Made by a program: the position numbers and the translations under genes. Positions 44,644 to 63,922 of a stretch of DNA of 64,000 bases are shown here, piece after piece. The DNA comes from Lactobacillus johnsonii (GTDB taxonomy: Bacteria; Bacillota; Bacilli; Lactobacillales; Lactobacillaceae). Location of the stretch: assembly GCF_013487865.1 (NCBI RefSeq), contig NZ_CP047409.1, forward strand, positions 744,001 through 808,000, read 5' to 3'. The notes under the pieces were generated by a model that saw nothing but the letters and a program-made list of their open reading frames with translations, was not told where the DNA came from and did no database searches. Numbering within the stretch: the stretch's first letter is position 1; every line of letters starts with the position of its first letter.

Positions 44644-45369
44644 ATGAGTCAAGTTAAGTATAAACGTATTATTTTAAAAGTTTCTGGTGAGGCCCTTGCT
44701 GGTGAAAAAGGTACTGGTATTAACCCAGAGGTTATTAAGCATCTAGCTGAAGAAATTAAGTCTGTTCACGATATGGGTGTTGAAATCGGCATTGTGTGTG
44801 GCGGTGGAAACATGTGGCGTGGTGAAACTGGTGCAAATCTGGGTATGGAAAGAGCTCAGGCAGACTACATGGGAATGTTAGCAACAATTATGAATGGTCT
44901 AGCATTACAAGATGGATTAGAAAACTTGGGCGTTCCAACACGAGTACAAACATCAATTGAAATGCGTCAAATTGCGGAACCATATATTCGTCGTAAAGCC
45001 GTTCGTCATTTAGAAAAGGGCCGTGTTGTTATTTTTGGTGGTGGTACCGGTAATCCTTACTTCTCAACCGATACTACTGCAGCTTTAAGAGCAGCTGAAA
45101 TTAATGCAGATGTAATTTTGATGGCTAAAAATGGAGTTGACGGCGTTTACTCAGCTGATCCTAAAGTTGATCCAAATGCTAAGAAATACTCTGAATTAAC
45201 TCAACTTGATTTGATTTCAAAGAACTTAAAAGTAATGGATAGTACAGCTAGTTCATTGTCTATGGATAATAATATTCCACTAGTTGTCTTTAATGTAAAT
45301 AAGCCTGGTAACATCAAGAAAGTTGTTATGGGTGAAAATATTGGTACTGTAATCAAAGGTGATAAATAA
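44644..45369 (+). CDS. pyrH: UMP kinase
   Basis: Phosphorylates UMP to UDP, feeding nucleotide and cell-wall precursor synthesis. 241 residues of the amino acid kinase fold. KVSGEAL lies at the N-terminus, [12 protein letters not shown] binds nucleotide, and [19 protein letters not shown] is the conserved active-site stretch. It starts with ATG behind GAGGAGG. Its stop codon overlaps the frr ATG by one base (TAATG), so pyrH and frr are coupled. Confidence 0.97.
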
Positions 45370-61214: not shown

Positions 61215-62153
61215 ATGAAAGTAATAACCTTAGATTATCCTATTTCTGCACCTATCACGACTAAAAAGGTAATCTTAACACTAGGTTTTTTTGATGGGGT
61301 GCATATTGGACATCAAAAACTTATTAAAGATGCTAAGCTAATAGCAGAACAAAAGCACTTACCATTAATGGTAATGACTTTTGATAAACATCCTAAAGAA
61401 ATTTATAACAACGATCATAAATTTGTCTATTTAGAAACTGAGCAAGAAAAAGAGCATAAAATGGAGAAGCTGGGAGTAGATTACTTAGTAATTATTAAAT
61501 TTACTAAAGAATTTAGCCAGCTTTCGCCTCAAGATTTTGTTGATCAGGTGGTAATGAAACTCAAAGCTGATACAGTAGTCGTTGGTTTTGATTATACTTA
61601 TGGCCCCAAAGATATTGCTAATGTAGAAAATCTACCTAAATTTGCTAAAGATAGATTTAAAATTGTAGTGGAGCCAAAACAAGCAATAGATAAAATAAAA
61701 GTGGGATCTACTTATATTAGAAAAGCTATTCAGCATGGAAATGTTGAACTAGCAGCTGAGTTACTTGGCCAGCCTTATGAAACTTCTGGCATTATTGTTC
61801 ACGGCTTCAGACGTGGACATAAAATTGGCTTTCCAACTGCTAATCTTGAAATTTCTGGCTCTAAAGTTTTACCAGCTGAGGGAGTTTATGCAACTAGAGC
61901 AAAGGTAAATGGAAAATGGCATGATGCTATGACTAGCGTTGGCTATAATGAAACTTTCAAAACAAATCATGGTTTGACAATTGAAACTAATATTTTTGAT
62001 TTTGATGAAGAAGCCTATGGTAAGCCACTAACTTTAGCCTGGTACAAGTTTATCCGTAAAAATAAAAAGTTTTCTGGTATAGAAGAACTTTCACATCAAT
62101 TAGATCAGGATAAGCGTGATATTAAACAATATTTTTATAAATTGAAAAACTAA
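61215..62153 (+). CDS. ribF: Bifunctional riboflavin kinase / FAD synthetase
   Basis: Converts riboflavin to FMN and FAD. 312 residues. The N-terminal nucleotidyltransferase domain contains LGFFDGVHIGHQKLI and, later, GFDYTYG and GSTYIRKAI. The C-terminal riboflavin kinase domain contains HGFRRGHKIGFPTANLE and TNIFDFDEEAYG. Start ATG after AGTGAGAG. It ends the housekeeping run; an ABC-F gene with its own promoter follows. Confidence 0.96.
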   Translation: MKVITLDYPISAPITTKKVILTLGFFDGVHIGHQKLIKDAKLIAEQKHLPLMVMTFDKHPKEIYNNDHKFVYLETEQEKEHKMEKLGVDYLVIIKFTKEFSQLSPQDFVDQVVMKLKADTVVVGFDYTYGPKDIANVENLPKFAKDRFKIVVEPKQAIDKIKVGSTYIRKAIQHGNVELAAELLGQPYETSGIIVHGFRRGHKIGFPTANLEISGSKVLPAEGVYATRAKVNGKWHDAMTSVGYNETFKTNHGLTIETNIFDFDEEAYGKPLTLAWYKFIRKNKKFSGIEELSHQLDQDKRDIKQYFYKLKN

Positions 62154-62161
62154 TTTTAGGG

Positions 62162-62190
62162 TTACTTTTATATAATCTATGTGATAGAAT
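62162..62190 (+). promoter_or_regulatory. Predicted promoter of the ABC-F gene
   Basis: TTACTT (62162-62167), a 17-base spacer, then TAGAAT (62185-62190) with extended TG at 62182-62183. A perfect palindrome TGATAGAA-TAT-TTCTATCA (62182-62200) lies over the -10. An upstream TATAAT at 62171 is an alternative. Confidence 0.6.
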
Positions 62191-62234
62191 ATTTCTATCA
62201 ATTGAAATTTAATATTTGAAAGAAGGTTACGCCG

Positions 62235-62246
62235 TTGCGTTTTTAA
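62235..62246 (+). CDS. Upstream mini-ORF 1 (M-R-F-stop) in the ABC-F leader
   Basis: TTG CGT TTT TAA preceded by GAAGG (62222-62226) at eight bases. The stop codon touches the first arm of the leader's long stem, so a ribosome held here would block that stem. Function inferred from position. Confidence 0.5.
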   Translation: MRF

Positions 62247-62395
62247 TCTTGCAAAATAGCATAGTTGAATTTTAATAATTATTTTCTTTTATAAGGACAA
62301 CTGTGCACTTTTGACAAGATTGAACGTAGATGGGGATCTTCTTTTTTTGCTTAACTAGGAGAAAGTCTACACTTGTCAAAAGTGTAGGCTTTTTT
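62245..62395 (+). promoter_or_regulatory. Ribosome-mediated attenuator of the ABC-F gene
   Basis: Three mutually exclusive pairings are visible. (1) 62245-62267 with 62298-62321: AATCTTG/CAAGATT, AAAA/TTTT and CATAGTTG/CAACTGTG. (2) CACTTTTGACAAG (62306-62318) with its exact complement CTTGTCAAAAGTG (62372-62384). (3) Terminator AGTCTACACTT (62364-62374) with AAGTGTAGGCT (62380-62390) and T6. Pairing 2 destroys 3; pairing 1 prevents 2. A ribosome stalled on a mini-ORF in the leader would favour read-through. Confidence 0.8.
62303..62314 (+). CDS. Upstream mini-ORF 2 (M-H-F-stop) in the ABC-F leader
   Basis: GTG CAC TTT TGA preceded by AAGGA (62293-62297) at five bases. It lies inside the antiterminator's 5' arm. 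It shares the M-x-F-stop form with mini-ORF 1. Confidence 0.5.
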   Translation: MHF

Positions 62396-62410
62396 CGTGA
62401 GGTGATTAAT

Positions 62411-63922
62411 ATGAGTAATATTAATATTTCAAATCTTTCTTTTAGATATCAAGATAGCTCAGATAATATATTTAATAATTTAAATTTAGACTTGGATAGT
62501 AGTTGGAAATTAGGTTTAGTAGGAAGAAACGGAAGGGGAAAGACAACCTTCTTAAATCTTTTACGAGGTAATTTAAGGGGAACAGGAAAGATACAAGCTA
62601 AACTTGAATTTAACTATTTTCCGCTTACTGTTAAAAATAAGGAACAATTAACTTTATATGCGCTGCAAGAACAAGTTTCATTTGAACAGTGGGAGCTTGA
62701 ACGTGAATTAAATTTAATGAAAGTTGATCCTGAACTTATTTGGCAGCCTTTTAATTCTTTAAGTGGTGGAGAACAGACTAAGGTTTTGTTGGCACTATCC
62801 TTCATTAATAAAAATAGTTTTCCTTTAATTGATGAGCCCACTAATCATTTAGATGAAGACTCCAGAATGCAGGTTATAGCTTATTTACAACAACATTCTA
62901 ATGGCTACATTGTGGTGAGTCACGATCGTGCTTTCTTAAATCAAGTAACAAACCATATCTTAGCAATTGAAAATACCGAGATTCATTTGTATCAGGGAAA
63001 TTTTGCCAGTTATGAAGATACAAAGACAAAGCGAGATAAGTTTAATCAAGATAAGAATGAAAAACTTCAAGGTCAAATTAGAAGTTTGAACGAAAGTAGA
63101 AAGCGAGTAAAAGGATATTCTCTTCAATCAGAAAACAATAAAAAAGCAAGTGCTCATAAAAATGAAATCCATGCATTCATTAATAAAGGTTTCTTTAGTC
63201 ATAAAGCGGCTAAAATAATGAAAAGATCGAAGAATCTTGAAAGAAGAATGGATAAGAATATTCAAGATAAAAAAGGCTTAATGATAAATGTTGAGTCTAT
63301 TTCTGAATTAGAAATGAACTTTCATCCCAACTATCATGGAACTCTATTAGAAGCGCAGCATTTAGATCTTACAGTCCAAAATAAGAAATTGTTTGAAGAT
63401 TTAAATTTAACTATTAAAAATCATGGGATTGTAGCTCTAGAAGGAAAAAATGGATCTGGAAAGTCTACATTTTTGAAAAATATTTTAAAACCAGATAAAA
63501 ATGTGATTTCTCAAGGAAAGCTTGATATTGTTAATGGCTTAAAGATATCATATTTACCACAAAATTTTATTGAATATTCTGGTACTTTATCTCAGTTTGC
63601 AGAAAAAGAAAAAATATCTTATGAAAATCTATTAAATATTCTTAGAAAAATGGGTTTTCCGAGAGAAAGCTTTGCCACAAAAATTGAAGAAATGAGTATG
63701 GGACAGCAAAAAAGAGTGGCGATTGCCAAATCATTGGTAGAAGAAGCAGATATATATTTATGGGATGAGCCAGCTAATTATTTAGATGTGTTTAACCAGG
63801 ATCAGTTAATTAACATGTTAAGAAAAGTACAGCCAGCGATGTTAGTAACTGAGCATGATAAATACTTTATTGATCAGGTTGCTGACAAGCGGATAAGATT
63901 AAATTCTTCAAAGAAGTGGTAA
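62411..63922 (+). CDS. ABC-F family ribosome-protection-type ATPase
   Basis: 503-residue tandem ATPase without membrane segments. ABC-F antibiotic-resistance factors (Lsa/Vga/Msr/VmlR type) displace drugs from the ribosomal exit region. Domain 1 has Walker A GRNGRGKTT, signature LSGGEQTKV and Walker B IDEPTNHLD. Domain 2 has GKNGSGKST, MSMGQQKRV and WDEPANYLD. They are joined by a basic linker (about 190-300) that would reach the peptidyl-transferase centre. The ATG at 62411 follows GAGGTG (62399-62404) and is the family start; the in-frame ATG at 62330 lies in the attenuator and has no Shine-Dalgarno sequence. The attenuator leader supports a drug-inducible resistance role (lincosamide, streptogramin or pleuromutilin type) rather than housekeeping. 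The drug spectrum cannot be read from the sequence. Nothing notable is seen in 63923-64000. Confidence 0.9.
   Translation: MSNINISNLSFRYQDSSDNIFNNLNLDLDSSWKLGLVGRNGRGKTTFLNLLRGNLRGTGKIQAKLEFNYFPLTVKNKEQLTLYALQEQVSFEQWELERELNLMKVDPELIWQPFNSLSGGEQTKVLLALSFINKNSFPLIDEPTNHLDEDSRMQVIAYLQQHSNGYIVVSHDRAFLNQVTNHILAIENTEIHLYQGNFASYEDTKTKRDKFNQDKNEKLQGQIRSLNESRKRVKGYSLQSENNKKASAHKNEIHAFINKGFFSHKAAKIMKRSKNLERRMDKNIQDKKGLMINVESISELEMNFHPNYHGTLLEAQHLDLTVQNKKLFEDLNLTIKNHGIVALEGKNGSGKSTFLKNILKPDKNVISQGKLDIVNGLKISYLPQNFIEYSGTLSQFAEKEKISYENLLNILRKMGFPRESFATKIEEMSMGQQKRVAIAKSLVEEADIYLWDEPANYLDVFNQDQLINMLRKVQPAMLVTEHDKYFIDQVADKRIRLNSSKKW

Follow-up and report, generated by a model that had tools for sequence, protein, structure and literature searches.

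A putative ribosome-mediated transcription attenuator with a conserved three-codon uORF ahead of an Lsa-like ABC-F gene in Lactobacillus

Background

In Bacillus subtilis, the start codon and the SD of the uORF encoding MIN are needed for induction of vmlR by lincomycin, and it has been argued that the decision is kinetic and involves RNA polymerase pauses (PMC9226507). Other uORFs of this kind read MR[I/M] for cplR in Clostridioides difficile, MK[L/Q] for vmlR2 and MAGN for LsaA (PMC10201436), and start-codon stalling by the same drug classes as those considered here has been described for are5sc in Streptomyces coelicolor (PMC12421871). In Streptomyces lincolnensis, loss of the start of the lmrC uORF2 results in constitutive expression, i.e. 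translation of this uORF favours the terminator (PMC8546547). A further related paper deals with hflXr (PMC6310831).

We report the analysis of a leader located in a 64,000-nucleotide stretch of Lactobacillus johnsonii DNA, hereafter the window, for which a sequence-only reading had proposed an attenuator with two M-x-F-stop mini-ORFs (uORF1 and ORF2) acting as a dual sensor ahead of an ABC-F resistance-type gene. Comparison of related leaders leads us to regard uORF1 as very probably the sensor of an attenuator through which ribosomes control transcription of an ARE ABC-F gene, and ORF2 is, as predicted by folding, almost certainly not a positive sensor. Taken as a whole, we favour with a probability of roughly 0.75 a leader with one positive sensor, uORF1, in which ORF2 is a possible second ribosome-entry site that favours termination.

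Methods

After removal of duplicates, 64 regions upstream of the ABC-F gene were available. The 45 with a shared leader were aligned and the other 19 were excluded by eye: L056 has 59 nt of upstream sequence only; L028, L029, L031, L060, L062, L074 and L095 have no recognisable leader directly upstream; and L090, L091, L094, L030, L033, L034, L035, L036, L037, L092 and L093 have an M-R/K-x-stop uORF with another downstream structure. Parsimony steps were counted on the ABC-F protein tree.

Helices were scored in two subsets of the 45 leaders. A1 (32 leaders) lacks the near-duplicates L044, L046, L047, L053, L075, L078 and L081 and the divergent leaders L052, L063, L070, L087, L088 and L089. 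A2 (30 leaders) lacks the near-duplicates L044, L046, L053, L075, L078 and L081, the divergent L052, L063, L087, L088 and L089, and L066, L070, L071 and L086, in which T2 is weak or absent.

For footprint folding, positions -14 to +15 relative to the start codon were forced to be single-stranded in 43 leaders at three points of T2 synthesis. L047 and L070 are absent from this set, and from those used for SD2 pairing and start accessibility, since their ORF2 pattern was unmatched. Equilibrium folding of the full leader was rejected as a criterion for switching, since T2 prevails in most leaders and the switch would be missed there. Pairing of SD2 within its own loop was scored in 30 chosen representative leaders.

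Results

Direct reading of the sequence places uORF1, ORF2, the AAT and AT helices, T2 and the ABC-F start at the positions claimed earlier (Table 1), and the AT arm at 62306-62318 is fully complementary to 62372-62384. Folding of 62188-62402 gives an MFE of -69.5 kcal/mol, whereas shuffles give -38.9 +/- 4.5 (z = -6.8) and none of 200 folds as well. The proposal of two mini-ORFs, three stems and a terminator before the ABC-F start holds for the window. Patterns of SD plus M-x-F-stop occur six times in the 64 kb, both strands included, and two of these are uORF1 and ORF2; when the leader was resampled 20,000 times with a Markov model, 1.6% of the resamples contained one such pattern or more and 0.015% contained two or more, and two in one such leader by chance are unlikely. 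The ABC-F frame is also open upstream to an ATG at 62330, across the terminator. Many relatives lack such a long extension, with frames near 500 aa, and judging from these sequences it is probably due to chance.

Table 1. Features of the leader and the downstream gene, in window coordinates
Feature	Position	Strand	Remarks
Extended -10 promoter element TGATAGAAT	62182..62190	+	TG-n-TAnnnT
Conserved 5' element ATCAATTGAAATT	62197..62209	+	Presumed RNA 5' end, just downstream of -10
SD of uORF1 (SD1) AAAGAAGG	62219..62226	+	GAAGG 62222-62226; also 5' side of long-hairpin base
uORF1 TTG CGT TTT TAA, M-R-F-stop, proposed sensor	62235..62246	+	Conservation, 45 leaders
AAT arm 1	62245..62267	+	18-pair helix
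SD2, SD-like AAGGA preceding ORF2	62293..62297	+	Purine-G conservation
Arm 2, partner of arm 1 (AAT) or, through 62306-62318, of the terminator (AT)	62298..62321	+	
ORF2 GTG CAC TTT TGA, M-H-F-stop, within antiterminator arm	62303..62314	+	
Possible first terminator T1: 3' side of long-hairpin base GATCTTCTTT and U-tract	62335..62348	+	
Intrinsic terminator T2 and U-tract	62364..62395	+	Stem 62364-62390; AT partner 62372-62384
Lsa-like ARE ABC-F gene, 503 aa	62411..63922	+	ATG at 62411

The claim of a promoter stands in modified form. A scan for two-hexamer sigma-70 promoters gave no match on the + strand at 62140-62200. The 12-mer ATCAATTGAAAT is exact in 32 of the 64 extracted leaders, however, and in 30 of these 32 the extended -10 motif lies at most 22 nt upstream of the 5' element; transcription would accordingly start near 62197. 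ATCAATTGAAAT occurs a second time at 44952, and TATCAATTGAAATT has 15 copies in the genome (one exact, 14 with one mismatch) vs 6 for the reversed control.

The 503-aa product of the downstream gene passes the NCBIfam model ribo_prot_ABC_F (NF000355; 446 bits, cut-off 380), which bears out the proposal of an ABC-F gene of the resistance type (ARE). Its score for the Lsa family model (NF000167) is 611 bits, and as this is below the cut-off of 750 we call the gene Lsa-like and not Lsa; among solved structures, Lsa(A) (7nhk, E 1.6e-147) is the closest in sequence. By analogy with the family, the protein is predicted to protect against lincosamides, streptogramin A and pleuromutilins. The ABC-F frames of L064, L072, L096, L097 and L098 show an early stop in the extraction while their leaders look intact; these genes may be broken, or the locus may be cut (L097).

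Within the 45 aligned leaders uORF1 always has a start codon (TTG in 43, GTG in two), the second codon specifies Arg in 44, and 41 have three codons and a stop; uORF1 is longer in L064, L066 and L070 and shorter in L082. The third residue is L in 22 leaders and F in 15. Parsimony steps were 2, 0, 0 for the start, 0, 1, 1 for codon 2, 10, 6, 10 for codon 3 and 0, 2, 0 for the stop. Because steps are few at the start, codon 2 and the stop and many at codon 3, uORF1 has, in terms of sequence, the signature of a coding region whose third codon is free to vary, and this signature points to a short, putatively translated uORF with an SD near the putative 5' end, as in an attenuator. Conservation of uORF1 in relatives, which the sequence-only reading had suggested to check, is thus evident, and the M-x-F-stop motif that it described is present in the window; what is conserved, however, is M-R-x-stop. 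An M-R-F- or M-R-L-stop uORF1 is also found in the unaligned leaders L110 (from another genus) and L131 and in the plasmid leaders L153-L155, and a pattern search for a start-(Arg/Lys)-x-stop uORF with an SD matched 51 of the 64 upstream regions.

The AAT helix (18 pairs) is paired in 93.3% of 567 cells of A1 vs 32-40% in slid controls, the AT helix in 94.5% of 384 cells of A2 (slid controls 36-55%) and the T2 helix in 97.3% of 329 cells of A2 (26-56%); these percentages are inflated relative to the slid versions by helix models drawn from the window sequence itself, and the omission of divergent rows from A1 and A2 favours the helices. Covariation scores were 0.114 for AAT, 0.164 for AT and 0.271 for T2, vs at most 0.064, 0.121 and 0.150, respectively, for the slid versions. 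In AAT, six pairs have changed on both sides (one of 500 shuffles had as many, and the +2 slide also had six), as have ten cells in AT (0 of 500 shuffles; slid versions up to eight) and ten in T2 (0 of 500; slides up to five). The mutually exclusive AAT, AT and terminator helices are hence conserved in relatives, as the earlier reading would have it, with weaker covariation for AAT than for AT and T2. In L071 and L086 only weak hairpins are found at the place of T2, and L070 looks degenerate. RNAalifold run on A1 recovered only the inner 8 pairs, and the covariance model built for searches (R1) is therefore mostly a sequence profile.

It is unlikely that T1, i.e. the long-hairpin base followed by a U-tract, is the main terminator, with the ribosome on uORF1 blocking T1 and T2 being secondary. 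In the window, the 3' side of T1 does pair with the SD1 region in the MFE fold and the pairing of SD1 with CUUCUUUU is followed by U-runs; moreover, L071, whose T2 is weak, retains T1 pairing, and a strong version seems, by eye, to be present in L094, which is not among the 45. Against this, at least 8 U in 12 are present at T1 in only 14 of 45 leaders, and T2 and AT covary. From its fold, T1 is a putative terminator.

With about half of the 3' arm of T2 transcribed, the mean P(AT) over 43 leaders was 0.01 without a ribosome and 0.74 with a ribosome on uORF1, where it exceeded 0.3 in 37 leaders (six failed); with the footprint shifted to codon 3 the mean was 0.73 (above 0.3 in 38 of 43). In silico, a ribosome on uORF1 would thus free the antiterminator arm at 62306-62318, as the sequence-only reading had proposed for drug-stalled ribosomes. 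For the full-length leader with uORF1 covered, mean P(T2) was 0.80 and mean P(AT) 0.19, and since T2 wins at full length in most leaders even in this state the decision must be kinetic.

Placing a ribosome on ORF2, alone or together with an occupied uORF1, gave a mean P(AT) of 0.00, with 0 of 43 leaders above 0.3 in each case. The ribosome abolishes AT because the body of ORF2 is the AT arm. Two positive sensors, with stalling on either mini-ORF leading to antitermination, are therefore very improbable, even if both mini-ORFs of the window have an SD, a start and a short length and ermB is reported to need both of its leader peptides (PMC8274638): in the folding, the second ribosome cancels the effect of the first. 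Of the ribosome-stalling attenuator proposed for this gene we consequently retain uORF1 as the sensor and the conserved AAT, AT and T2, and drop ORF2 as a co-sensor acting in the same direction.

A start codon for ORF2 is present in 43 of 45 leaders (ATG 30, GTG 12, TTG 1) and a start with a stop at codon 4 in only 25, so its M-x-F-stop pattern is not generally conserved; since relatives are not independent, such counts overstate the evidence. Retention of the start was rejected as proof of translation, given that it fits the G-U tolerance of the AAT helix. The upstream SD2 site is more uniform. Relative to the start of ORF2, column -9 is a purine in 45 of 45 leaders and column -8 is G in 43, the exceptions being L064 and L082 with A. 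Neither column shows a purine/pyrimidine step, vs 3-10 at the remaining 12 columns between -17 and -4, ten of which have 9-18 parsimony steps; two loop columns farther 5', -42 and -37, are also low with one purine/pyrimidine step each. The anti-SD energy of SD2 is better than that of 90% of loop shuffles (p<0.1) in 38 of 45 leaders, and the purine-G at -9/-8 is found in the unaligned L110 and L131 and in the plasmid leaders L153-L155 as well.

We give odds close to even, slightly on the negative side, to ORF2 being a structural by-product of the AAT/AT arm and SD2 a product of chance or a loop feature with another role. The G-U tolerance is consistent with this (partner column A 5 steps and C 3; ORF2's T 0 and G 2), and so are the lack of an ORF2 stop in all but 25 leaders and the covariation of AT, which is strongest at columns 106 and 107 of the ORF2 stop codon (unpaired in 7 and 3 of 30), such that these bases follow the T2 loop and not the stop. 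Likewise, whether or not a ribosome occupies uORF1, the ORF2 start is paired (P >0.5) in 41 of 43 leaders, and ribosome entry there may hence be rare, while L066 and L070 have lost the aligned start and still hold GGAG. The strict purine-G conservation at SD2 argues for a ribosome-entry site instead, and none of the alternative pairings tested accounts for it generally. With uORF1 covered, none of 43 leaders pairs SD2 with T2 (P >0.3) at half T2 and 5 of 43 do so at full length, while a single one pairs it with the T1 side; a place for SD2 in the AT helix or in T1 was accordingly rejected as a general feature. Pairing of SD2 within its own loop was somewhat above shuffles (mean 0.68 vs 0.57; 21 of 30 leaders above their shuffles; p 0.058 by Wilcoxon test) and at p<0.1 in 9 of 30 leaders only, and an apical helix hiding SD2 in this way was not established.

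Conservation of SD2 as an extension of the AT helix onto the base of the T2 3' arm (GAG with CTC), and not for ribosomes, is improbable. In leaders of the GGAG type, e.g. L054, GGAGAGACTATGCAC does resemble the T2 5' arm GGAGAGTCTGCAC, and the five leaders with pairing at full length pair SD2 in this manner; no such pairing is seen in the other 38 of 43, and the window and its closest relatives, with AAGGA, have no CTC in the T2 3' arm. On balance, we give similar odds to a conserved ORF2 ribosome-entry site and to a by-product, and if such a site were used it would oppose antitermination.

The ABC-F gene is present in 44 of 75 Lactobacillus genomes (match at 1e-60), and a search of named genomes gave 34 loci. 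R1 detected the leader in 37 of the 75, all but one of which belong to the 44 that have the gene. It also detected the leader in 13 of 301 sampled genomes across the family (2 of 40 genera) and in 8 of 246 sampled genomes across the order (1 of 64 genera); owing to strict filters these are lower bounds, and genome G061 was missed though its leader L088 is among those aligned.

Eight of the excluded leaders, from Limosilactobacillus and others (L030, L033, L034, L035, L036, L037, L092 and L093), carry a TTG AAA TTY TAA uORF (M-K-F-stop) with a different downstream structure and, by eye, no conserved ORF2, and represent a second leader type with the same gene family. An orphan leader, L111 (G038:C7:70512-70644; R1 72.8 bits), has M-R-stop and no clear ORF2; it is flanked by ORFs that we take to be ribF and hrcA, its genome has no match at 1e-60 to the Lsa-like gene, and the gene seems to have been lost. 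In L110, about 600 bases of repeated units (L110:1706-2328) lie between the terminator and the ABC-F start and separate the switch from the gene; its upstream sequence agrees with that of L029, Lapidilactobacillus bayanensis.

Among 72,556 plasmid records, three contain leader DNA of 74-75% identity. All three also carry the gene (73%), and in these copies (L153-L155) the two mini-ORFs and T2 can be read. The plasmids are from Ligilactobacillus salivarius (pig), where IS1216 lies at a distance of about 2 kb, Limosilactobacillus reuteri (dog), with an adjoining IS3 transposase gene, and Lactobacillus amylovorus (pig), with leader and gene; an IS1216 or IS3 transposase gene is thus less than 3 kb from the leader/gene unit in two of the three.

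Finally, Rfam at the gathering score had no matches in the 64-kb window, and the eight hits in 62150-62420 were weak, non-bacterial-looking or sub-threshold (best mir-1303, 22.9 bits, for which the gathering score is 107). The best matches listed for the open-licence literature included no title on an ABC-F leader from Lactobacillus, which weakly suggests that the leader is new.

Discussion

The attenuator described here is defined by the conservation, covariation and geometry of its elements as read from aligned leaders, and from these we infer drug stalling, the identity of the drug, termination and any role of ORF2. In the absence of drug, uORF1 would be translated and the ribosome would depart, arm 1 would pair with arm 2 (AAT) and T2 would form. 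With a PTC drug, a ribosome held on uORF1 would cover arm 1 and leave arm 2 free to pair with the loop and 3' arm of T2 during transcription (AT), such that RNA polymerase would read into the gene. The switch would be kinetic, with T2 as the predicted more stable full-length state in most leaders.

The SD-like site and start of ORF2 could constitute a second ribosome-entry site, occupancy of which would favour termination, as a brake or fail-safe. That ORF2 is an active brake we propose tentatively, with the odds somewhat against it, and we are rather doubtful that ribosomes, idle or drug-bound, load inside the AT arm and cancel antitermination begun at uORF1. If the brake were real, the response might be confined to a band of drug concentration or guarded against leaky read-through, and one switch would hold two three-codon ORFs of opposite sign; it would also illustrate how the response to an antibiotic can be limited by an ORF of three codons. 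Irrespective of ORF2, the leader is widespread in one genus, has no Rfam match and precedes a resistance-type gene of common gut lactobacilli. Genes under such induction may look silent without drug.

Two short ORFs in one inducible resistance leader are also known from ermB, which differs in sensing erythromycin, in translational attenuation and in longer peptides (PMC8274638). The are5sc leader likewise has two three-codon uORFs (MLV and MRS), the first with a TTG start, but these overlap, unlike uORF1 and ORF2, and toeprinting indicates that only the first is translated (PMC12421871). For a uORF that favours the terminator, as proposed for ORF2, the lmrC uORF2 is a precedent; it partly overlaps the terminator and was the sole one of four that mattered, whereas ORF2 is located within the antiterminator arm and the role of sensor is proposed for uORF1 (PMC8546547).

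In overall design the locus resembles vmlR, with a three-codon uORF with SD in the AAT, an AT and an intrinsic terminator before an ARE ABC-F gene; it differs in the peptide (M-R-F/L vs MIN) and in the TTG start conserved here, and the available part of PMC9226507 does not mention a second ribosome-entry site for vmlR. The LsaA uORF, MAGN, differs from M-R-F although the present protein is nearest to Lsa(A), and among cplR, vmlR2 and LsaA the closest uORF match is cplR, in which a 5' hairpin with a three-codon uORF, M-R-x, precedes a terminator that, unlike here, also hides the SD of the gene (PMC10201436). By its sequence, the M-R-x-stop uORF1 is a new relative of the vmlR and cplR uORFs, located ahead of an Lsa-like gene.
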